Virus record (IMG/VR): IMGVR_UViG_3300030118_006072
Location: 548 to 36,214 of that record
Source of the DNA: a virus
Length of the DNA: 35,667 bases
Direction: 5' to 3' (one strand)
In this document: one piece after another, positions 1,135 through 17,840 of the stretch
Numbering within the stretch: the stretch's first letter is position 1
Layout: each line of letters opens with the position of its first letter
Notes under the pieces: generated by a model
Databases searched by the model: none
What the model was told of the DNA's origin: nothing
The model's input: the letters and a program-made list of their open reading frames with translations, nothing else
Translations under genes and position numbers: made by a program

Positions 1135-1259
1135 TAGAATTATATGAATATTTTAAAATGTATATCGTAATTGGAATTTACTTTGTAAGTATATTGATAA
1201 CAATTTTAATGGTTATAGCCTTTATATACTTTATGGTAACACTTTCTTTATACCCTTAG
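1131..1259 (+). CDS. Small membrane protein (42 aa)
   Basis: It starts within the stop of the preceding small membrane gene (ATGA at 1131-1134). The product has a short amphipathic start (MIELYEYFKM) followed by one long hydrophobic stretch rich in Ile, Val and Phe, then ends LSLYP. It is likely a single-pass membrane protein. It is the last gene of the 569-1259 group, since a strong terminator begins eight bases after its stop. The two adjacent tiny membrane proteins look like a functional pair; the function is unknown. Confidence 0.5.
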   Translation: MIELYEYFKMYIVIGIYFVSILITILMVIAFIYFMVTLSLYP

Positions 1260-1266
1260 TCAAGAT

Positions 1267-1324
1267 ACAGAATCTCCTATCCCCTATTCCAGATCCATGG
1301 AGTAGGGGTGGATTCTGTTTTTTA
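1267..1324 (+). terminator. Rho-independent terminator
   Basis: The outer stem is ACAGAATC (1267-1274) with GATTCTGT (1311-1318). After a small asymmetric internal loop, the inner stem pairs CCCCTATTCC with GGAGTAGGGG. Six T residues follow at 1318-1323. It ends transcription of the early group 569-1259 and separates it from the XRE operon. Confidence 0.9.
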
Positions 1325-1378
1325 TACCCTTGAGCCTTAAATTTACAGCCTAAGTACCAATTCGCATTTATAATGCTA

Positions 1379-1495
1379 GTGAGTCAGAGTCTTAGGTTCA
1401 TCTTCTGTTGCAGCTTTACTCACAATCCCTTTTGGTAACTGCATTTGCGGATCCTATGAGCCAAAAGGTTGTAGAACTCAAACCTCATAGGGTTT
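1379..1495 (+). ncRNA. Candidate structured leader RNA with H-type pseudoknot
   Basis: Four perfect 8-base segments lie in the order A-B-A'-B': CCTTTTGG (1428-1435), CCTATGAG (1453-1460), CCAAAAGG (1461-1468) and CTCATAGG (1484-1491). A pairs with A' and B with B', which is the topology of an H-type pseudoknot with the stems directly abutting. Stem B can extend to 12 pairs with wobbles (1449-1460 with 1484-1495). A further GTGAGT (1379-1384) pairs with ACTCAC (1418-1423). A TATAAT at 1369-1374 would place transcription start at about 1381, right at the first stem. No known riboswitch class was recognised. The pairing is seen directly; that it is transcribed is inference. Confidence 0.5.
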
Positions 1496-1570
1496 ATAAT
1501 ATATGCAAATTATATTGAAAATACCAAAGGGTAATTTTATATTTTAAGATTAAAAGGGTAATTTTTATGC

Positions 1571-1603
1571 TTGTAAAATTTTTCTTGTACAAATGATTAT
1601 AAT
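1571..1603 (+). promoter_or_regulatory. Putative XRE promoter and operator
   Basis: TATAAT at 1598-1603 lies 22 bases before the XRE start. Upstream are TTGTAA (1571-1576, a long 21-base spacer) and the palindrome TTGTACAA (1585-1592), which sits where a repressor would block polymerase. The TTGTA half-site recurs in the perfect palindrome between the divergent late promoters at 30954-30975. Autoregulation by the downstream HTH protein is an inference. Confidence 0.4.
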
Positions 1604-1625
1604 TAATTAAACTAAGGGTATGAAT

Positions 1626-1820
1626 ATGAATATTAGACGACCACAAATCAAAGAAGCAATACAAAACTCAGGCTTAAAGCAAAAATTCGTAGCAGAAAAG
1701 CTTGGAGTATCAGAAATAACATTATCATACTACATTAGCGGCACTAGGAATCCTTCAAGGGAAAGACTTAGAGATTTGGCTAGAATATGTAGATGTAAAA
1801 TATCAGACCTGGAGGGCTAA
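1626..1820 (+). CDS. XRE/Cro-like helix-turn-helix regulator
   Basis: A 64-residue single-domain DNA-binding protein of the Cro/CI (HTH_3) family. The sequence shows the typical pattern: a first helix (IKEAIQNSGLK), then KFVAEKLGVSEITLSYYISG as the helix-turn-helix, then an RNPSRERLRDLARICRCKISDL tail that matches the closing helices. There is an earlier in-frame ATG at 1620, but the ribosome-binding site AAGGG (1614-1618) is one base from it and seven bases from the ATG at 1626, so I chose 1626. It is the first gene of the nuclease-SSB operon; the next gene overlaps it by one base. It is likely the phage's transcription switch; no second CI-like repressor is seen. Confidence 0.85.
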   Translation: MNIRRPQIKEAIQNSGLKQKFVAEKLGVSEITLSYYISGTRNPSRERLRDLARICRCKISDLEG

Positions 1821-2596
1821 TGGCTAAAGCATCTATAACAGATTTAGTAAAAAGATATAACAAAAGAGTTGACCTTCGTAGAGTACAAGCATCTAATGGA
1901 AGATGGTACATCAACGCAAAATTAAAAGACCCAACCCCTAAACCCTCAATGACAACAATAGATAGTATTATAGATAAAGGCGCAGCTTATGAGAAATGGC
2001 TACTTACTGCCAAAGATCCCTATGCTTGGAGAGATTATAAAGCAGACTTAGGCACTTGTGTGCATAATTTAATAGAAATTCTAATTCTAAGTGGCGAGTG
2101 CGTTATAACTAATGAGATGAAGGGTAAATTCCAGGAAAACGAAATCAAGAAAAGAATATTAAGTTTTTTAGCTTGGTGGGAAGAACACAAACCTGTGCCG
2201 ATTGCAACTGAAATTAGATTGTATCACAAAGACATACCTTGGTGTGGCACCGTAGATTTCGTTTGTTTTAGTAGAAAGCTTAACAAATATTTAATGGTTG
2301 ACTTTAAGACAGGCAATGAATATAAATCACATCAAGTGCAGCTTAACGGATATAAAATGATTTGGGATAAACTATTTAAAGATTTCACAATAGATGCAAT
2401 ATATGGTTTATATTTAAAGGATGGATGGGTAAAAAAGCCAACTTTCGGCTTCAAAAAGTTTCCTATAAGCAAAGATCTGCCCAACTATGTTTATAGGTTA
2501 TGGAAATGGGCAAACCAAAACTCAAAGGGGGAATTAGCTCCTGCTTTGCCGAGGGAATTCCCCGATGAGTTTACAATTCAGGAGGAATCCAAATGA
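1820..2596 (+). CDS. PD-(D/E)XK nuclease (RecB/Cas4-like exonuclease)
   Basis: A 258-residue protein with the core of the PD-(D/E)XK nuclease superfamily. Features include a helical GTCVHNLIE segment near residue 80, a CGTVDFV strand with Asp146, a LMVDFKTG strand with Asp161 and Lys163, and a downstream HQVQLNGY helix with the Gln/Tyr typical of RecB-type nucleases. It probably degrades or trims DNA ends for recombination or replication, or recycles host DNA. The following gene encodes an SSB-like protein, matching the common phage pairing of exonuclease with single-strand binding protein. The start ATG overlaps the previous stop (TAATG) behind GGAGGG. Distinguishing a recombination exonuclease from a Cas4-like or restriction-like enzyme is not possible by eye. 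Confidence 0.8.
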   Translation: MAKASITDLVKRYNKRVDLRRVQASNGRWYINAKLKDPTPKPSMTTIDSIIDKGAAYEKWLLTAKDPYAWRDYKADLGTCVHNLIEILILSGECVITNEMKGKFQENEIKKRILSFLAWWEEHKPVPIATEIRLYHKDIPWCGTVDFVCFSRKLNKYLMVDFKTGNEYKSHQVQLNGYKMIWDKLFKDFTIDAIYGLYLKDGWVKKPTFGFKKFPISKDLPNYVYRLWKWANQNSKGELAPALPREFPDEFTIQEESK

Positions 2597-5589: not shown

Positions 5590-5617
5590 AAACAAAAAGC
5601 CCCTATAAAAGGGGCTT
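5590..5617 (-). terminator. Rho-independent terminator of the late block
   Basis: AAGCCCC (5597-5603) and GGGGCTT (5611-5617) form a perfect 7-bp stem with a 7-base loop. Read on the minus strand the stem is followed by TTTTTGTTTT, a proper T-tract, so it terminates the long leftward late transcript just after the gene ending at 5647. On the plus strand no T-tract follows, though the hairpin may still slow rightward transcripts. Confidence 0.85.
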
Positions 5618-7431: not shown

Positions 7432-10400
7432 TTATGAGTTTAAAATTATATTAATTACTGTGACAACATCTAGTACATCAACATTGCCATCTTCATTTAC
7501 ATCTGCCTCAGGAGTAACCTCTGCGTTTCCTAAAACCTGATTAACCATCTGAACTACATCTAAAACATTTATCATTCCGTCACCATTTACATCTCCAGGT
7601 TGTGCATATTCACAACTACCATCATCTGTATTTGCATCTGGATTGTAGTTACTCGCTGTACTATCTGTACATCCATAGATAGGCTCTGAAACAGAATCGC
7701 CAGCATCGCCAGATATTGGTGGAGGTGCATCTCCAACTAACAAATCAATTTCAGAATTATATGCAGTCTTTCCTGACCAATCATGCATTTGAGTCATTCC
7801 AAGTGTTACTGTCATATTTTTATTTAACTTAACTTTGTCAATAATGAATATTGGCAATATAGATTGACCAAGTCTAGTTTCATAATTTATGATATCATCT
7901 CCACCCTCAACTGGCGTAATATTTTTTAAAAAGTTTTCGTAACTATAATCTTGACTATTAACTGTAACGTCATCACCAAGAAGCTTATCAATATTTACAA
8001 TATCACCAATTTCTAGCCCTATATATTTAATTGGAAGTGTAATTTCAAGTTTTTGATGTATGTTCATATTCCAACCTAAAACATATTGTGCTAAAGCTCT
8101 TGCCGAATGAACATCATTTATATAGTTAGCTTCTATCGTTTTTTCTGCATTTAAGAAATTTGTTTCTACTGCATCTTCATCGTAAGCAAGAGTTGAATCT
8201 ATGTTATAAAATTCTTGCAGAGTCGTATCTGTTGGGGAAGTACCTAAATCCTCATAATATTGCTTTATAGCAGGAATATCATACCAATAAAACCAGTCAG
8301 TTGCATACTCGAAATCACCACTATAACTAGTTTGATTGTATTTAACTCTACATCTTCCTATGATATCTTCTGTTCTTGTTTGTGTAACTTTATAGTTAAT
8401 AACATCATATTTATATATAGTTTTAGATATGTCAGTTGCGCCTCTATCCCTAGAATATCTGTTAGGGCTAGGTTGTGGCACGTTTGAATTTTCTAACCAC
8501 CAATGCACTCCAATTGGTTCGTATTCTCCATTTACTCTATTCTTTAAAAATGTATCTACATAGTCATAAAATTTAGTACCTAGACAATCATCTGGATTAT
8601 CTTGAGAAGGAGTATTTGCAAAACACCTATTATTAGACGAATTCCAATGAGTTTGTTTTCCACCGTGAGCATAAGAATTAAAGTTTTCCCAATCAGAAAC
8701 ACTTGCGTTGAAATCGCTGCCATCATTTGGATTTCTATAATAGACCATAGAATGGTTTGGCCAAGCATATCCCCTTCCTTCATAGTTAGGATCATAAGAA
8801 TCAACTTGCATAAAAACATTAGGAAATCTATTTTTTTTCCAGTTACCATTTAAATTTGATCCCGTCTGTTGATGGTATATAGTTCTATTTTGAGGAGCAA
8901 TCATTGTGGTTCTCCTGTATGTTTCATCATGAGTACTCACACCAGTAAATTTTTCTGATGTCCAATAACCTGGTTTGATATCTATATTAGAAGCATCAGT
9001 TTGGCTATTAAAGTCCATACCTATTGCTGAAATTGACAATGGAATATTTCCAGATTCTGCAAAATTACTTAAATTTCCAGAGCCATCTTCTATAGCTTCC
9101 TTGACGTGTGAAAAATTAAAAAGATTTTCTATTCCTGGTGCTCCAAGCGCATCTAATCTTTCATATATCCATGCATTTCTTAAATCATGTATGCTACCAT
9201 CCATTCTATATGTGGCATCGGTAGTGCCAATATAATCTTGCCACTCCCATTGCGTTCCATCGTCTTCAACGTAAACAATTTGATTAGGCCTTGGCAATCT
9301 TCCCTCTACAGTATACCATCTTGTAACCAATTTCCATGCCCCGCCATCAAAGCCTTGTTGTCGTTCGTGCTCAAGAACTACACTATCCAATAAAATCCCA
9401 TAACCTGTTTGCGTTTCTGAGTTTAATAGTTGGTAGTTGGAAGAATAAGGTTCTGTATCTTCGTAAAAGTCATATCCTGCTCCAATAAGAGTCATATCAT
9501 AACTTCCCATATAAGTTCCTAGTGTTTGATAATAAGCTTCATAATTAGGATCTGGTTGGGGATTATTTGATGTACCTCCCCCTCCTAATAAAGTATCGTA
9601 ACCGTGTGTATATCTTGCCCAATAATTACCACTAGATATTCTATCTACATTTGAAGGAAATTGATGTACAACAAGTGTATTAGGGGGGTAATCTTCATAG
9701 CTTTGAAATGGCATACCTCCTTCCATCATTATCCATGATTCTCCCGATCTTCTAACGTAATTATCGCTTGTGCTACCCCCAATATGTGACAATCCAGTCA
9801 TATCTTGTGCATCCATCCCAGAATAGCTTGTTCTCCAAGCAGATAATTCACCAATCCCTATTTCAAAAGGCTCAAATAAAACTGGAGCTTGGCTATGAGT
9901 TATCATTGTAAATCGAACTCTAATATCTTGAGGTAGCCCATAATCACATGAAAGGTCATCTATGTTCGCATTTGCATTATAATTTTCTGCAATCTCGTCT
10001 GTACAACCATATACAAACAAGCCATCATCAAAACTTGTTTCATAATAACAAAGATTATTATCTATTGTCGCAGAGCTATCATAATATCCTGATACACTTG
10101 GAATTAATCCGTCATTAAATAAAATTTCAGCCATTTCTTCTGTAATTGCGTTTGGATCCTTACATCCATAAGTCCAACTTGACTCAGGAATATTATTTAC
10201 AAGACAACTACCATCATCAAGTGTAGCTGACGAATCATAATTATCAGCAAAAGGGTATGTGCATCCTTCTATCAAATCTTCTGGTTGATCATATGAGTTG
10301 TACTGAGATTTTATTGTAATAAAAGTAAAGTCTAATCCATCAAAAAATGGTATTATTCGGCTTTGCGATGAAATATTTTCTAAAATTTCTTTTGCAGGAG

Positions 10401-13056
10401 CAGACTCTGTTTGTGAAAATCCTAATTTATGCCTTTCATTATAGAGTAATATAGAGCCATCTTCTTGTGGTAGCCAAATTGGAGATGAAGCATGCTCGTC
10501 AAAGGCAAGCTCCCATAAATTTCCATATTTTGCAGTTTCCCAAGTATATTTAAATTCATGTCCTAGTTCTGAGGTCATTATATCTGAAACAACAGCAGCT
10601 GGATTTGATATTACTAAGCTTGAATCATAACTAAAATCGGAAAACAAAAAGGAATTAATGCCTGTCTGATTTATTTTTCTACCATGTTTTAAATAAGCAT
10701 ACAAATCAATATCATTAAAGTCTTCTGCTGCATAAATCATGTAATAACCTAAAGCTTTAATCCACATTTCACCTGTTTCTGCAAGATCTGGTACATCATA
10801 ATCATCTAATGTTCCCCCTACATCAAGAAGTGTTACTGCTTGGCTAGAATCCCATAAATTAAAAGATAAGCTTTTAGGAGGATTTCCTGGCTCTGAATAA
10901 AGCATCATAGTATCTTGAATTCCATAAGTAGCTGTTAATTCATTGTGTATTAAATCATAAGAGCCATTATTAAAAGTATCATATCCATCTCTTACTTCAG
11001 GTGGTAAATAATTTTTAAAAATACCTGCATTAGCCCACGATAAAACAGTAAAACTTCCTCGATGCTGATATTGATTACCCCAAGAATCTGTAGACCCTGT
11101 AAAATCTATAAACATACCTAAAAAGTTTGTTGATTCAGCAAATCCTGTATAATATATATCATTTACATAGCTACCTTCACTATCAGGTATAGCCATTACT
11201 GCAGCAAACATATCTTGCCAATCAAAGCCTTGTTCAGGGTTATTAGAGTTCCACTCAGCTGCTGGCAATTTTGAAAATGTTAAAGTTCTTAAATTTTCCT
11301 CAGGACTTGCAAACTCTGAGCCCATTTTTATTTTTACACCTTCCCAATCAGAATAGTCAGGGTTTACTGTAACACGATTAGATGCATGTAAACTAGCAAA
11401 CCACCCACCTGCAACCTTGTCATCAATCCAAAAAAGTAAAGCTGGCTCTGAGCCCATATTCATAGAGCTTGTGTCAGTTGGGTCAGATAATTGACCTGGG
11501 TAATCTGCATCCATATATTCATACTGCACTCTAACTCTACCAAAATTATCATATTGACCATCTGTTGATGTTGGCGTTGTATATTTATCAAAATTTATAG
11601 GTCGTTCGTCACTATATATACTATTTTCTATTCTAGCAATCATGTCTGCTTCTATTGTAAAGAAGCATCTTTGATTACTTGAAGCATGAGGTGGCGATTC
11701 AAATACGCAATCTACACCAACCGTAGCTCCTGTGTATTGCCAAGTATCTGTATTAAATGTTTCATTTACAGGTAGTCCCATATTAAGCAATACATCTTTG
11801 TTAAAACCTATCTCTCCTCCGACATAAGTTTCATTGCTAAAATCGACTAGTCTAATATATTCGTTTGCACTAGTATAATTCTCGTTCCATGCAGTTAATT
11901 CATCTTCGCCTACAATTTCCCTATTATTGTATTTAATGCCACCGCTTAGTAACTCACCTTCATCTAGATATCCAGGAAATCCATTTTGGTATCCACCCCA
12001 AACTGAAGATGAAGTTACCCATTGAACGTCTTTATTTGTAGACTCCCATTTTCTTATTGGGAATTTTTTAGAAGCTGCTGCATCTACGCCTTGCTCAGGA
12101 GTAGTTATATTTATTGTTTCAAACAACATATTACTTGAGGGTTGCTCTGGTATACTCTTATTGAAATGAAACTCTGCTTCACATTGATTGTCAGCAAACA
12201 AATTCACAGAACCATTTTGAGCTATTTTATTAAATTTTATTTCATTTTTATTAGGTACTTCGCTCCATTGATCGCCACCAACAATAGGAGCACCTTCCCA
12301 ATCATCTGATTGTTCGTTATATCTCCTAAATAAGCCACTATGAGTTCTAAGTAATCTAGATTCATTTGCTCCTTCAAAAAAATGAACTCCTTTTACTGAG
12401 TTATCACCGTAATAAGCTACCTCATTGTCAAAAACTCCATGTGTAGCTGTATCTGTATCAGAAACTGTTTTATATAATGGCGAGTAAACAAAGTATCCAT
12501 AGTTCATAGGATATGGATTTAATGAAAACTTTCCATAATCTTCTATGGATAATCTTTTGTAAGGTATTTTTTTATTTAAAACTTTAGAGCTTAAATCTTC
12601 GCATTGTATTATAATTTTTTGACCACTATTTTTTATTTTTGTAACCACTCCACTATAAACTTTAGGGCAATCACCAAAATACTCGTTATGTTCTGAAACT
12701 AACCATAAACCTATTTCTTGACCTACTATATCTGTATTTGAAATCAATGCAAAATGTTGAGCCAAAGTTTTCCCTGCATACTTTGCATTTACACAATTAA
12801 ATGTTAGATTAGATATTTTATATTCGCTTTTAATAACATCTATAGAAGACGAAAATGTAGGAAAATCTTTAAGCATTGGAACAATAGGATGGTCTACTGA
12901 AAAAGTTGAATTACTAAATTGTCTTGTACTTATAGTTAAGGCAGACCCAACCGTTGGTTTTCCATCAGGATTATGACTACCCAAAGTTATGACAGGCATA
13001 ATGCTTGCATGATCATTCTCAACACCAATTTTAAAAAGCTTATTAAATGTCTTCAT
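7432..13056 (-). CDS. Giant tail hub / tip protein with GCTD repeats and C-terminal dockerin
   Basis: At 1874 residues this is the largest protein of the window, directly after the tape measure (TAATG overlap), where siphophages encode the hub or host-specificity protein. The N-terminus (about 1-175) looks like a hub domain, for example the segment with VYSGVVTKIKNSGQKIIIQ. Near 1640-1780 a second hub-like segment appears (LALAQ-type helices, then LEIGDIVNIDKLLG and IFIIDKVKLN). Between them is a long aromatic, beta-rich region without recognisable domains. Three cysteine repeats lie at 931-1037 and one at about 1794-1817, and the last 54 residues are a dockerin. It would form the tail tip, penetrate or bind the cell surface, and display the added modules outward. 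The repeats and dockerin look like acquired host-type surface modules. Confidence 0.8.
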   Translation of the reverse strand: MKTFNKLFKIGVENDHASIMPVITLGSHNPDGKPTVGSALTISTRQFSNSTFSVDHPIVPMLKDFPTFSSSIDVIKSEYKISNLTFNCVNAKYAGKTLAQHFALISNTDIVGQEIGLWLVSEHNEYFGDCPKVYSGVVTKIKNSGQKIIIQCEDLSSKVLNKKIPYKRLSIEDYGKFSLNPYPMNYGYFVYSPLYKTVSDTDTATHGVFDNEVAYYGDNSVKGVHFFEGANESRLLRTHSGLFRRYNEQSDDWEGAPIVGGDQWSEVPNKNEIKFNKIAQNGSVNLFADNQCEAEFHFNKSIPEQPSSNMLFETINITTPEQGVDAAASKKFPIRKWESTNKDVQWVTSSSVWGGYQNGFPGYLDEGELLSGGIKYNNREIVGEDELTAWNENYTSANEYIRLVDFSNETYVGGEIGFNKDVLLNMGLPVNETFNTDTWQYTGATVGVDCVFESPPHASSNQRCFFTIEADMIARIENSIYSDERPINFDKYTTPTSTDGQYDNFGRVRVQYEYMDADYPGQLSDPTDTSSMNMGSEPALLFWIDDKVAGGWFASLHASNRVTVNPDYSDWEGVKIKMGSEFASPEENLRTLTFSKLPAAEWNSNNPEQGFDWQDMFAAVMAIPDSEGSYVNDIYYTGFAESTNFLGMFIDFTGSTDSWGNQYQHRGSFTVLSWANAGIFKNYLPPEVRDGYDTFNNGSYDLIHNELTATYGIQDTMMLYSEPGNPPKSLSFNLWDSSQAVTLLDVGGTLDDYDVPDLAETGEMWIKALGYYMIYAAEDFNDIDLYAYLKHGRKINQTGINSFLFSDFSYDSSLVISNPAAVVSDIMTSELGHEFKYTWETAKYGNLWELAFDEHASSPIWLPQEDGSILLYNERHKLGFSQTESAPAKEILENISSQSRIIPFFDGLDFTFITIKSQYNSYDQPEDLIEGCTYPFADNYDSSATLDDGSCLVNNIPESSWTYGCKDPNAITEEMAEILFNDGLIPSVSGYYDSSATIDNNLCYYETSFDDGLFVYGCTDEIAENYNANANIDDLSCDYGLPQDIRVRFTMITHSQAPVLFEPFEIGIGELSAWRTSYSGMDAQDMTGLSHIGGSTSDNYVRRSGESWIMMEGGMPFQSYEDYPPNTLVVHQFPSNVDRISSGNYWARYTHGYDTLLGGGGTSNNPQPDPNYEAYYQTLGTYMGSYDMTLIGAGYDFYEDTEPYSSNYQLLNSETQTGYGILLDSVVLEHERQQGFDGGAWKLVTRWYTVEGRLPRPNQIVYVEDDGTQWEWQDYIGTTDATYRMDGSIHDLRNAWIYERLDALGAPGIENLFNFSHVKEAIEDGSGNLSNFAESGNIPLSISAIGMDFNSQTDASNIDIKPGYWTSEKFTGVSTHDETYRRTTMIAPQNRTIYHQQTGSNLNGNWKKNRFPNVFMQVDSYDPNYEGRGYAWPNHSMVYYRNPNDGSDFNASVSDWENFNSYAHGGKQTHWNSSNNRCFANTPSQDNPDDCLGTKFYDYVDTFLKNRVNGEYEPIGVHWWLENSNVPQPSPNRYSRDRGATDISKTIYKYDVINYKVTQTRTEDIIGRCRVKYNQTSYSGDFEYATDWFYWYDIPAIKQYYEDLGTSPTDTTLQEFYNIDSTLAYDEDAVETNFLNAEKTIEANYINDVHSARALAQYVLGWNMNIHQKLEITLPIKYIGLEIGDIVNIDKLLGDDVTVNSQDYSYENFLKNITPVEGGDDIINYETRLGQSILPIFIIDKVKLNKNMTVTLGMTQMHDWSGKTAYNSEIDLLVGDAPPPISGDAGDSVSEPIYGCTDSTASNYNPDANTDDGSCEYAQPGDVNGDGMINVLDVVQMVNQVLGNAEVTPEADVNEDGNVDVLDVVTVINIILNS
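7435..7596 (-). other. Type I dockerin domain at hub C-terminus
   Basis: Residues 1821-1874 contain two duplicated calcium-binding loop-helix units. DVNGDGMINVLD and DVNEDGNVDVLD each have Asp1, Asn3, Asp5 and Asp12 of the dockerin loop, and are followed by VVQMVNQVL and VVTVINIIL helices. Nothing is missing from the canonical pattern. Dockerins bind cohesin domains; a cohesin-like domain is encoded by the very next gene. Confidence 0.9.
9946..10266 (-). repeat. Three GCTD-type cysteine repeats within the hub protein
   Basis: Residues 931-1037 hold three copies of a module of the form GC(T/K)(D/Y)xxAxxY(N/D)xxAx(I/L)D(D/N)xxC. One copy carries an insertion of about 20 residues. A fourth, cleaner copy (GCTDSTASNYNPDANTDDGS, ending in Cys) lies at about 7605-7677, just before the dockerin. 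Each has two cysteines and acidic loops that probably bind calcium. These repeats are familiar from large secreted proteins of marine bacteria. Confidence 0.8.
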
Positions 13057-16000
13057 TATTCTAAAATATTATCCCCTCGCCTTATGGCCTCTCGTATTTT
13101 TGGTATAGCTTCGTCAATAATAAAATCATCCGATAAAATATTTCCTTCGAAATTTATTACAATATTAGTTGGTTCACTTTTTGGCATTTCATTATTTTGC
13201 ATCCCTTGAATTAAACCACCTTTTCCATATCTACTCATTCCAACTAAACCACCTGATCCATATCTACCTTCTAACAATCCTTGTCTGACAGCCATACTAG
13301 AGCCTATAGAACCAAGCCCAATAAATGGTCTTGCATCACGAATATCCATTGCTAAATTGTTAATTTTTTTCATATTTTCTACACCCATAGCTTGTACAGC
13401 TTGCCTGCTCATAACAAATTCACCTTGCTCTGCTTCGATTATTGTTCCACCTTGACTATGTCTTTGACCTCCAACAAGTCCTCCGTACTCATAGCTTGGT
13501 GGTTGTTGCGCTGCAATAAATCCTGCTTGAGCTGCTCCAAAAGCTGCAATTAAGCTTATCCAAGGTTGCCCTCCAGTTGCCCAAAATGTAGCGTACGCTT
13601 CCATCATAGCTCGACCTGTACTTACAGCAACCTCTGATAAAGAAATGGCTTTTTGATAATTAAAAGCCTTTGTTCTTTCATCTGCATGGTCTTCTGCAAT
13701 CTGTTTTTCCATTTTCTTTTGATCAGCAGCATTCGCTTTTGTGTATCTTTCTGATAGTTTTAATCTTTCGAGGTCTGCTTGATATGCCTTTTCTACTTTT
13801 TCTTGATATGCATCAACAAACATAGCTAGAGTATCTGTAAACATTTCTGTTATATCAAGCAATCCTCCTGCGATTGCAAGAGCTTTATCTTTTATTTCAA
13901 ACTCTTCTATTGCTGCATCAAAATCAGCAAGTTTAGCTTGAATTTCATCAAAAGGTTTTCCTAGCTCAGTAGCCTCTTCTAAATAGGCTTTTCTTGCATC
14001 TCTTAATGTATCAATCTGAGAACTAAAAGCACCAGAATGCTTTGCTAAAAATCCTGAGGTATCAGGAACGTCTAATGCATCCATAGGATCTAAGTCTGCT
14101 AATCTTTGTCGACTATCTATGAGCTCTTGTTCTGATTCAATTATATCAAAATATCTATCATTTAACTTCTCATATATTATAGCTTTCTGCTCTTCTGTAA
14201 GATTTAAGTCTTTACTTGTAGATAGTAACTTTTGTAAAGCTCTTATTCTATCCATCTCAGTAAATTTAACTTCATCTATCATTGCCTGTAGTTCGGTTTG
14301 TGTAGCAAGAACATTTTTATCGATTTCTAAGACATCGGCCTTTATAATACCCATCTCTACACCTTGGCTGTAGAGTGTATTATATCCATCTATTTCTTGT
14401 TGTCTTAATGCTATTAAATCATTCTGTGTTTGTGTTTCCTCTCTTCGCTGTTTTTGAATTCTATCCATCAATAGCTCTAAAGAAGTCATGTTAGCCATTC
14501 TTTTTTCGTCAGTCAACGCCTCAACACTTTTTATTTTACCAGACTTGACCATTTCATCGTATAGCTTACCTTCTTCTGCTCTAAGTTTTATTGTTTTTGC
14601 TATTAAATGATCTCTTGTAGCAACTTGAGTTTCTAAATTTGTTTTAAACTCTTCATAAGTATCTCCTAATAAACCTAAATTTCTAGCCTGATCTACATCA
14701 GTTCTTATTAGATGCATTTTATTTCGTAAAGATTCTTCCTCTTTCTGATTTGCTAATTGCAATTGGCTAACATAGTAAGCGTAACCTTGCGCTGTATATC
14801 CGAGAAATTCAGCTAGAACTGGATAATCTCTAATTAAATCTTCTTTAAATTGCTTAGATAATTTTTCAGCAGCTAAAGCATCTTCTGTATTCATTATATA
14901 TAACTTGAATGCTGCATCTGTGTCACCTTGTGCTGCATCAAACTCAAGTATTGCCCTTTCAGCATTTCTTTTTTCATCTGTTAGGGCTTGAGTGCTTATA
15001 GCTTGGTCGTCAATCGCATTTATTGAGGCTTTATAGGCAACAAGTTCATCTCTTTGAGCTTTTAGTCCTGTGTCAGATATCTTGTTGTGTTTTTCCATAA
15101 ATTTTGTAAGTCTAGCTTGCGCCCTTCCACCTACATGAAGATTGTTAACATAATCACTATATTGTTTATTTAGTATTTCGTAACCTGCATCTAATACTTT
15201 TATTCTGTCAGCTAATTCTTGTTTTTTATCAGAAGTTAAGTCAGTTGCTTCCATTTGAAGTTCAAGCTCACTTCTTAATTTTCTATATTCAGAAAAATCT
15301 CCCATAAACCCAGCAACTGTACCTTTTGTAGATGCTTGAAATAAAGATTCTAGTTTTTGCTCTATATTTCCAAAAGTTTCCTCTACACCTATATTATTCA
15401 TCGCCTTAAACTCATCTGATAAAAATCCTAAAGATTCTGCGACTTTTTTCTGCATATCATTCATTCCATGATACATTCCCTCAACATGCTTTTGCATATC
15501 TTCAAAATTTTGTAATTCTATAACGCCCAATGCTATTTCTTTATTTACATCATCTGTAGTTTGAAGACCCAACATCTGAGTTTTAATATAATTTTTATAC
15601 ACCTCATCTAGTAATGCATAGTTCTTAATAAGAGTATCCATATTGTTGGATGAATTTTTAAACTCTAAAGCTTGTTTTTTTATGCTTGCTAAAAACTCTG
15701 GATATGATTGTAATTCTAGGACACCACTTAATTTATTTAAATCATCTGTATATTTTTTTATAGCAGCATCTACATCATCTATTGTCATACCAACACTATC
15801 AAGCATCTTTTTATTATTTTTATTAGAAACTAAAAAGTCTATATTAGATTGTATTGCTTCTTTTTGTGATTTTTTTGTACCTTTATATAGATTTGTAAGC
15901 CTATCTTCTAACTTTTGATTCTCTTCATTTAATTTCTTAGTTCCGTCTGTTAATTTTCTTAAATGCTCAGGAATATTGTTTTCATCATAAAATCCTGAAT

Positions 16001-17840
16001 CTTCGATATCTTTAAGTATGGTTTGTAAATTGGTGTATTCATCACGTTGCTTTTTAAGCTCATCTTGCATTTTTTGAAGAGTCATTACATCGTCTTCTTT
16101 TACAATAGGATTTTCTAAGAGTTTATCTCTTTGATCATTGAGAGCTTTTAAAACTATTTCAAACTGACCTGCTTCAAAAGTATTTGCTTTTAAAAATCTG
16201 CCTTCTTTTTGGAAAAGTTTTAACATTTCTATTTGCTTGTCTATTACCTTAACTCTTTCCTCATTACTATCAGCTAATATTTTTTTATAAATCTTTATAA
16301 ATTCCATATCATCTGTGCTAAATATCGGCTCTTCTTTTTTTCTTCCTTCTAATATTCCTTGATAGTAGTCTTCTAAGTCTGCCTGATCTTTTCTTACCTT
16401 TATAACTTGTTGTATCTTAGTTACTAGGTTTGCTAAGTATCTTATATTCCTACTTCCTGCTTCAAAGGCAGCTTTATCGGCTTTTGTTTGTTCGCCTGTA
16501 GCAGACACATTTTCAAGGATTTCTTCTCTAGCTTTTAGCAACGCTCCAGTTAAATCTCCTATTGCATCTTCCATTGATTCTGTATTTTCAATGTCAAACA
16601 AACCACCTTCTCCAGCAAATGCTTTTTCTATACTACTCAATGACTCGCCTAACTCATCTTTCAAGAATGAATTCATTTTTTGCATTTGCTCCATTCCAGT
16701 TCCAATGCCACCGAAATCCATAAACATAAATTCATCAAAATCGCCTAAGTCAAACAATTCTTTTCTTAAATCTTTAACATCACTAGCTAAGTTTGCAATT
16801 TTCTCTATTGAATCTTCTGTATTTAATATAATTTTAAATCCTGCTAGTTTCTGTGCTTCTACTCCTAATTCTTCCATTTCTCTAACTAAAGTTGCAAGTG
16901 GACTTTCATTTATTTCCTTAAAAAATCTACCTAATTCATTAGCTAAATTAGTAATTACACCCATTGTGGCTTCAGCAGCTGGCATCAAGAGATTACCAAG
17001 ATCAGCTTGCATTCTTTGGGTAGCATCCTGCATATTAGAAAGCCTCCCTACGTAGGTATCTGCCATCGCTTCTGTTGCGCCCTGTATACCTATAAGAGGA
17101 TCTCTCATTGCTCCTATTAATGCTTTTCTAAATTCTGGCAATGTGAGTTTTGATATATCGTCTACTTTAGCAAATGCTTTTACAAGATTAAGCACACCTC
17201 TTTCCCGAAGTATATCAGCAGCACCTGCTCCTCCTGCGAATGCTCTACCAAATGCATTTGCTGCTTCAGTTGCGTTTGTACCCATAAATGCAGCAAGGTC
17301 TGTAATTTCAGTTAATAATTCTCTTGAATCTGCACCAAACGCTTTTAATTGAGCTCCAGCATTAACTATATCGTCTAAAGCAAATGGAGTCTTTGCAGCT
17401 TGTGCATTAAATTGCTCAAATGCCGCCTTACCTTCACCTATCGAACCAAATAATTGTGTTAATCTAACTTGTAAGGATTGAAATTTAGCAGCTTGATTTA
17501 CTGCTGCTTTTGTTACATTAGCTATAGGTCTAGTAATTAATCCAAATGCAAAACTAGTAAGAAGAATTTTATTTCTTAAAAGGGCAGATGAAGCCAATAA
17601 TCCATCAAATCCCTTTTTGCCTTCTCTATTTGCTTTTGTTACACGCTGTTGTGCTTTTTCTTGTTTTTGCGCATTTTTAACTGCTTGTTGTTGCACTTTG
17701 TCATACTTTATTGCTTGCTGAGTTGCTATATCTGTTTGATTTTGCAACTTATTTTTTGCATTAGCAAGATTATGTATAGCTTTAGTTAATTGTGGTGCGC
17801 CTTTTTGCGTGAACTCAACTGTTATTTTTTGCTTTGGCAT
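13056..17840 (-). CDS. Tail tape measure protein
   Basis: A 1594-residue protein with the hallmarks of a tape measure. It has an N-terminal Lys/Gln-rich coiled coil (about 20-75) and a hydrophobic stretch (about 90-120). The conserved core is FGSIGEGKAAFEQFNAQAAK with TPFALDDIVNAGAQLKAFG at about 135-190. Very long helical coiled-coil regions follow, and the C-terminus carries GGLVGGQRHSQGGTIIEAEQ followed by GEFVM, usual in the family. It fixes tail length during assembly and may later leave the tail with the DNA. By the general rule of about 0.15 nm per residue, a tail of roughly 240 nm is expected. It overlaps the T-frame chaperone by 26 bases and is coupled to the hub by TAATG. Confidence 0.95.
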   Translation of the reverse strand: MPKQKITVEFTQKGAPQLTKAIHNLANAKNKLQNQTDIATQQAIKYDKVQQQAVKNAQKQEKAQQRVTKANREGKKGFDGLLASSALLRNKILLTSFAFGLITRPIANVTKAAVNQAAKFQSLQVRLTQLFGSIGEGKAAFEQFNAQAAKTPFALDDIVNAGAQLKAFGADSRELLTEITDLAAFMGTNATEAANAFGRAFAGGAGAADILRERGVLNLVKAFAKVDDISKLTLPEFRKALIGAMRDPLIGIQGATEAMADTYVGRLSNMQDATQRMQADLGNLLMPAAEATMGVITNLANELGRFFKEINESPLATLVREMEELGVEAQKLAGFKIILNTEDSIEKIANLASDVKDLRKELFDLGDFDEFMFMDFGGIGTGMEQMQKMNSFLKDELGESLSSIEKAFAGEGGLFDIENTESMEDAIGDLTGALLKAREEILENVSATGEQTKADKAAFEAGSRNIRYLANLVTKIQQVIKVRKDQADLEDYYQGILEGRKKEEPIFSTDDMEFIKIYKKILADSNEERVKVIDKQIEMLKLFQKEGRFLKANTFEAGQFEIVLKALNDQRDKLLENPIVKEDDVMTLQKMQDELKKQRDEYTNLQTILKDIEDSGFYDENNIPEHLRKLTDGTKKLNEENQKLEDRLTNLYKGTKKSQKEAIQSNIDFLVSNKNNKKMLDSVGMTIDDVDAAIKKYTDDLNKLSGVLELQSYPEFLASIKKQALEFKNSSNNMDTLIKNYALLDEVYKNYIKTQMLGLQTTDDVNKEIALGVIELQNFEDMQKHVEGMYHGMNDMQKKVAESLGFLSDEFKAMNNIGVEETFGNIEQKLESLFQASTKGTVAGFMGDFSEYRKLRSELELQMEATDLTSDKKQELADRIKVLDAGYEILNKQYSDYVNNLHVGGRAQARLTKFMEKHNKISDTGLKAQRDELVAYKASINAIDDQAISTQALTDEKRNAERAILEFDAAQGDTDAAFKLYIMNTEDALAAEKLSKQFKEDLIRDYPVLAEFLGYTAQGYAYYVSQLQLANQKEEESLRNKMHLIRTDVDQARNLGLLGDTYEEFKTNLETQVATRDHLIAKTIKLRAEEGKLYDEMVKSGKIKSVEALTDEKRMANMTSLELLMDRIQKQRREETQTQNDLIALRQQEIDGYNTLYSQGVEMGIIKADVLEIDKNVLATQTELQAMIDEVKFTEMDRIRALQKLLSTSKDLNLTEEQKAIIYEKLNDRYFDIIESEQELIDSRQRLADLDPMDALDVPDTSGFLAKHSGAFSSQIDTLRDARKAYLEEATELGKPFDEIQAKLADFDAAIEEFEIKDKALAIAGGLLDITEMFTDTLAMFVDAYQEKVEKAYQADLERLKLSERYTKANAADQKKMEKQIAEDHADERTKAFNYQKAISLSEVAVSTGRAMMEAYATFWATGGQPWISLIAAFGAAQAGFIAAQQPPSYEYGGLVGGQRHSQGGTIIEAEQGEFVMSRQAVQAMGVENMKKINNLAMDIRDARPFIGLGSIGSSMAVRQGLLEGRYGSGGLVGMSRYGKGGLIQGMQNNEMPKSEPTNIVINFEGNILSDDFIIDEAIPKIREAIRRGDNILE

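Follow-up and report, generated by a model that had tools for sequence, protein, structure and literature searches.

A conserved pseudoknotted RNA of uncultured phages, very probably the product of a stand-alone gene, represents a previously undescribed RNA family

The DNA analysed here (the window) comprises 35,667 of the 36,214 bases of an IMG/VR virus record. At the locus of interest, a plus-strand early operon opens with xre, encoding a small HTH protein, and continues with an exonuclease gene and an ORF at 2593-2940 that the initial annotation had named SSB and for which we found no Pfam or PHROG match. Upstream of xre, and assigned below to the minus strand, lie the parts of a proposed non-coding RNA (ncRNA) gene, namely a promoter-like sequence, a core of about 150 nt with seven helices (1349-1491) and, 3' of the core, a module in which two copies of a repeat (R) flank a hairpin (H), referred to here as R-H-R (1247-1331). 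A structured element had previously been placed at 1369-1625, an interval that needs widening to 1245-1527. The features are collected in table 1.

Table 1. Features of the ncRNA locus and the adjoining divergent operon (window coordinates; minus-strand helices are given 5' to 3' on the RNA).
Feature	Position	Strand	Remarks
Helix B	1491-1484 with 1460-1453, 8 bp	-	double-sided changes in 7/7 modelled pairs; 99.2% of cells paired, n=35
Helix A	1468-1461 with 1435-1428, 8 bp	-	pseudoknotted with B and P4; 99.2% of cells paired, n=35
Helix P4	1443-1437 with 1415-1409, 7 bp	-	pseudoknotted with A and P7; 6/6 modelled pairs covary, n=35
Helix P7	1423-1418 with 1384-1379, 6 bp	-	stem sequence varies by phage
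Helix P3	1407-1404 with 1388-1385, 4 bp	-	stacked on P7; 3 pairs with double-sided changes in 11 close homologues
Helix P1	1396-1391 with 1354-1349, 6 bp	-	pseudoknotted with P3 and P7; double-sided changes in 5/6 pairs
Hairpin P2, GCATT/AATGC	1364-1376	-	4/4 pairs covary; contains TATAAT 1369-1374
Repeat R, copy 1, AAGGGTATAAA	1321-1331	-	identical to copy 2
Repeat R, copy 2, AAGGGTATAAA	1247-1257	-	identical to copy 1
Hairpin H, between R copies	1267-1318	-	GGGGATAGG-type bulged 3' side; shape alike in nearly all members
Proposed ncRNA gene	1245-1494	-	5' end ~1491; 3' end not before ~1247
Promoter-like TTGGTA-N18-TATATT	1498-1527	-	ends 6 nt before stem B; 9/12 matches
xre upstream region	1510-1621	+	27-bp tandem repeats; AAGGGTA at 1527, 1554 and 1614
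xre, small Cro/C1-type HTH protein	1620-1820	+	Pfam HTH_3, E 5e-13; first gene of the divergent early operon
Exonuclease (phrog_298)	1820-2596	+	divergent operon; E 1e-26

Homologous loci occur in 34 other phage contigs, giving 35 members with the window, and they were reached by independent routes: relatives of the large terminase (TerL), a leader DNA match, motif scans and relatives of the nuclease. The terminase has 50 relatives of 70-90% identity among viral contigs, and the first leader homologue, located upstream of an xre-nuclease pair, was found among the records of these relatives (71% over 113 nt, E 2e-5). Further homologues came from motif scans and from protein scans for nuclease relatives; a scan of the viral contigs with the nuclease protein gave nothing useful. 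The 35 members were confirmed by covariance models R1 and R2, while two additional loci (L155 and L166) matched the motif and not the model. R1 aligns to the window at 1494-1343 on the minus strand with 117 bits (E 9e-22), the window being one of the model's own sequences.

Searches of Rfam 15 with the window and six relatives returned no match at the gathering cut-off, and a permissive Rfam search gave sub-threshold chance matches only. BLAST against isolated phages, including with the leader DNA, yielded none or chance matches, and the pelagiphages HTVC010P, HTVC011P and HTVC008M scored at chance level. Seven matches to the exact 16-mer CCTATGAGCCAAAAGG proved unrelated, and seven pattern matches in one-per-species cellular genomes were attributed to chance; none of either set fits the covariance model. 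The RNA common to at least these 35 uncultured phages is a previously undescribed RNA family, absent from Rfam 15 and from the open-access literature searched. Judging by their AT-rich sequence and a weak terminase similarity to pelagiphages, among many others, the phages may be marine.

Two pairs of complementary 8-mers do lie where the initial annotation had put them, CCTTTTGG (1428-1435) with CCAAAAGG (1461-1468) and CCTATGAG (1453-1460) with CTCATAGG (1484-1491), and they are the sole interleaved perfect 8+8 pair within 70 nt in the whole window. Dinucleotide shuffles lead one to expect 0.03 abutting pairs and 0.30 pairs of any form per window strand, whereas for the local 295-nt gap the chance is 0.0005 and 0.004, respectively; when the whole window is searched, the pairings are thus less rare than the one in 10,000 originally suggested. 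Judged from the window sequence alone, the pairings are suggestive. We accept them as real because comparative evidence settles the question: in the homologues both A and B covary, with the compensatory changes that had been proposed as a test. The simple nested fold is unremarkable (z of -1.2 to -1.6 on the plus strand and +0.5 on the minus strand), as expected if the structure is pseudoknotted.

The two stems turn out to be merely one end of a larger structure, on the strand opposite to that first assumed. Read 5' to 3' on the minus strand, the helices follow in the order B, A, B', P4, A', P7, P4', P3, P1, P3', P7', hairpin P2, P1', so that successive helices (B/A, A/P4, P4/P7, and P7 and P3 with P1) are interlocked in a chain of pseudoknots; we know of no other RNA with such a run. 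In a MAFFT alignment of 11 close homologues (39 pairs), 98.1% of cells are paired, 23 of the 39 pairs show double-sided changes, and covariation reaches 0.459 as opposed to 0.03-0.09 in slid controls. Realigning the window by one column in P1 and P2, where its register is shifted, brings the count to 427 of 429 paired cells, with P1 pairing at 100%. For helices B, A and P4 across all 35 members, the corresponding values are 98.9% paired and a covariation of 0.663 (0.05-0.09 when slid); helix A, to which no model was ever fitted, contributes two covarying pairs. The stem of P7 reads UCAG/CUGA, UCGG/CCGA, GUGAGU/ACUCAC or GUAUCA/UGAUAC in different phages, and the sequence of P2, including the TATAAT at 1369, likewise varies among relatives with its pairing retained.

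Distant members (L118, L120 and L143-L147), placed by hand, have the same helix order with unrelated stem sequences. P3 was found in every member so placed, P2 is absent from L118, L120 and L147, and helix A of L147 carries a bulge. An automatic descriptor of P4, P7, P3 and P1 fits 21 of 26 distinct members, at most one in 60 shuffles being as good for each; in its strict form it fails for some distant members (L160, L168, L173, L163 and L152), at least three of which form the chain by eye with a P1 of 5 bp. The core nucleotides are strongly conserved, including the segments GGUUUGG, UACUUUUGGC and ACCAAAAGGGG. Close relatives (L087:1738-1770 and homologues) and L143 carry an AT-only hairpin (AATTATA...TATAATT) after P1, which the window lacks, about 36 nt being missing there. 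In another member (L110:1-185), some 30-40 nt are inserted between B' and P4 and helix A is mismatched (CTTATTG/CAAAAAG); this copy is either degenerate or an assembly chimera.

The strand follows from the wobble pairs. In the 11-sequence set, the non-Watson-Crick standard pairs are all G·U on the minus strand (14 cells, with no A·C), and no pair would be G·U on the plus strand, where the mirror fold loses these cells and is 94.6% paired. Comparison of the 35 members shows U·G, C-G and U-A replacing one another at fixed positions of B and P4 on the minus strand. Hairpin H is more stable on the minus strand in 30 of 31 members (mean 6.3 kcal/mol), the sole exception being the window itself (-29.1 on the other strand and -23.9 on the RNA strand). 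Because variable pairs show G·U rather than A·C and H folds better there, we assign the RNA to the minus strand; on this comparison of sequences, it appears practically certain that the conserved RNA structure is real and belongs to that strand. The locus illustrates that a strand assignment can be reversed by the asymmetry of its G·U pairs.

The R-H-R module is present in all 31 members examined. The R copies are 7-18 nt long, identical within a pair, typically 62-90 nt apart, and flank H; the longer pairs far exceed chance (0-2 of 200 shuffles), the shortest (L146, L163 and L152) not being significant alone. R differs from phage to phage (AAGGGTATAAA in the window, AAGGGGATAGATATAAAG in L094, AGGGTTATAATA in L118 and AAGAGGAAGCA in L162), the copies agreeing within each phage. 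Exact AAGGGTATAAA occurs in the 35.7 kb only at the two R sites, and in the window and most tested loci R was found nowhere else on the sequence at hand; being almost confined to its two places, R was rejected as a genome-wide operator. XRE is a doubtful reader of R, since L087 and L092 have identical XRE and different R, and no segment of the core complementary to R was seen. L092 combines an L087-like core with an L088-like R-H-R, and the core and the module therefore recombine separately. Reading the hairpin at 1262-1323 mainly as a plus-strand terminator was rejected, as many members lack a U-run and the minus-strand form is the more stable across the family; a plus-strand T-run occurs in only some members. 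On the RNA strand H has no U-run either and so does not resemble an intrinsic terminator, a GC hairpin followed by such a run. Note also that both minus-strand copies of R have AAGGGTA, the 7-mer repeated upstream of xre, as their core (1251 and 1325), and that five of the ten copies of this 7-mer in the window fall within 370 bases, a pattern not seen in relatives.

Promoter-like sequences are weak individually, the window's own score of 9/12 being reached by shuffles 13.5% of the time, and become apparent in the family, with a mean of 9.0 over 35 members against 7.5 in shuffles. Most members have a TATA-like hexamer whose end lies 4-10 nt ahead of stem B and, 16-18 nt upstream of it, a hexamer resembling a -35 element; the best site is TTGACA-N18-TATATT in L143. 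No terminator or 3' end of the ncRNA was found. Wherever the flank is long enough, the nearest neighbours of the RNA on either side are genes of the opposite strand, and no gene on its own strand comes after it, whereas a cis-regulatory leader or riboswitch lies upstream of the gene it regulates, on the same strand. Since both flanking gene blocks are opposite, the locus is very probably a stand-alone phage ncRNA gene, divergent from the early recombination operon, rather than a leader or riboswitch. An independent RNA was very probably the right one of the three options initially offered, and the statement that it belongs to no known class holds as well: a real and conserved pseudoknotted RNA has no Rfam family match.

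In most members the divergent operon begins with an HTH protein; other first genes are found in L143, L144-L146, L154, L157, L160, L161, L168, L171 (the Sak annealing protein), L173 and L174. The distance from the RNA to xre is 125-130 nt in most XRE-first members, although the intervening DNA diverges. The tandem AAGGGTA repeats upstream of xre are possible operators in the window; in L087 (1460-1590) and its homologues, three tandem RTTATATTT-N-TGNATT repeats of about 30 nt lie between the RNA and xre and are possible XRE operators. The window's 258-aa exonuclease is split in L090 (1910-3003), L087, L088, L089, L092 and L094 into an N-terminal ORF of about 120 aa and a C-terminal ORF of about 160 aa, with a third, overlapping ORF of about 95-112 aa between them.

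Several known systems share some of these properties. GOLLD and ROOL, large ornate RNAs of several hundred nucleotides from phages and bacteria, are likewise stand-alone structured RNAs, partly in phage DNA, recognised by covariation (PMC12286853, PMC2864571). The present RNA differs in its pseudoknot-chain core of about 150 nt, its helix order and its lack of an Rfam match. Lambda OOP RNA and P22 Sar RNA are short antisense RNAs that also come from the minus strand of an early control region; in contrast, no divergent gene overlaps the pseudoknot-chain RNA, whose fold of several pseudoknots is conserved. In satellite P4 the early control region uses an immunity RNA, CI, instead of a protein repressor; CI arises by processing of the early transcript and base-pairs with the leader of that transcript, whereas the RNA found here is encoded on the other strand and has a putative promoter of its own. 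The Put and EAR processive antitermination RNAs, compact structured RNAs at the transcript start in phage or bacterial control regions, act on the polymerase that transcribes the operon they belong to, and the RNA described here has no same-strand operon. ToxI, the RNA of type III toxin-antitoxin systems, is also a phage-related RNA pseudoknot and consists of tandem short repeats before a same-strand toxin gene (PMC5086642). Our locus has a single core and no same-strand gene downstream.

The best explanation overall, to which we would give slightly less than an even chance, is a stand-alone minus-strand ncRNA acting in trans as a ribonucleoprotein (RNP) scaffold or decoy. The trans-acting RNP mechanism as such is put forward tentatively, by analogy and because no gene accompanies the RNA on its strand. 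The RNA would be made early from a sigma70-like promoter sharing a divergent control region with xre, would fold co-transcriptionally into a compact, stable scaffold and would act in trans as an RNP scaffold or decoy, its conserved core meeting a conserved partner, probably of the host, and the two identical R copies around H being read by a phage-specific partner. A bolder reading, plausible though less likely than not, is that of a new class of phage RNA: an RNP of about 290 nt with a pseudoknot-chain core and a 3' R-H-R carrying a phage-specific identity read by a cognate factor. If true, such an RNA would give uncultured phages a specificity element made of RNA, serving early host takeover, immunity or replication.

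Among the other readings, a cis-acting switch is rather unlikely: transcription of the RNA, or its product, would set the level of xre, nuclease and SSB in the place that cI/PRM occupies in lambda, a Cro-like XRE controlling both promoters. XRE/HTH as the usual first divergent gene, the RNA-to-xre spacing, nearly constant in most such members, and the AAGGGTA tandem repeats that the window has between the two promoters would fit, but a number of members start the operon with another gene, and a mere interfering transcript needs no conserved seven-helix fold. Neither is a link to a replication origin probable, with the transcript entering the R direct repeats as initiator sites and being, or controlling, the replication primer by a logic like that of ColE1 RNA II. 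It would account for R copies that are paired, phage-specific and otherwise unique on the available sequence of nearly all members tested, and for the adjoining recombination/replication genes; against it, H is selected as RNA, the R spacing varies (62-90 nt) and no initiator gene was recognised.

A self-cleaving or otherwise catalytic RNA, that is, a new ribozyme, appears very unlikely. Compact interlocking pseudoknots are typical of small ribozymes and the core nucleotides are strongly conserved, but no Rfam ribozyme matches, a cleavage product cannot be inferred, and the helix order is, to our knowledge, that of no small ribozyme. It differs from the nested double pseudoknot of HDV-like ribozymes (P1-P2-P3-P1'-P4-P2'), and whereas group I introns have a P3-P7 core with splice sites inside a gene, this locus is intergenic without an Rfam intron match. 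The reading initially proposed, a plus-strand structured leader or riboswitch of the xre operon, is already contradicted and highly improbable. The position upstream of xre and the largely preserved pairing of the mirror fold speak for it; however, G·U pairs and the favoured form of H are on the minus strand, the RNA points away from xre, and in several relatives xre is immediately preceded by a plus-strand promoter-like sequence of its own (e.g. TTGACA-N17-TAAACT in L092). The TATAAT at 1369-1374, proposed as the promoter of that leader, sits in the stem and loop of P2 and is not conserved, and was rejected for these reasons.

The fold and the R-H-R module are new in kind, whereas phage-borne orphan structured RNAs such as GOLLD and ROOL were already known. 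A new class of structured RNA that covaries strongly in most of its helices is an uncommon find, and here a pseudoknot-chain topology is joined to a module in which the two repeats vary in concert between phages. The RNA occupies the site of the early switch of temperate phages and does so in phages for which no close isolated relative was found, and it thus provides a concrete molecule for asking what use RNA has in early infection. Elsewhere in the window, two adjacent giant genes of 1874 and 1594 aa without a PHROG match (7432-17840) lie in a minus-strand block that also contains the major head protein gene, and a strong intrinsic terminator on the minus strand (5597-5617) lies just past the end of the minus-strand gene block.
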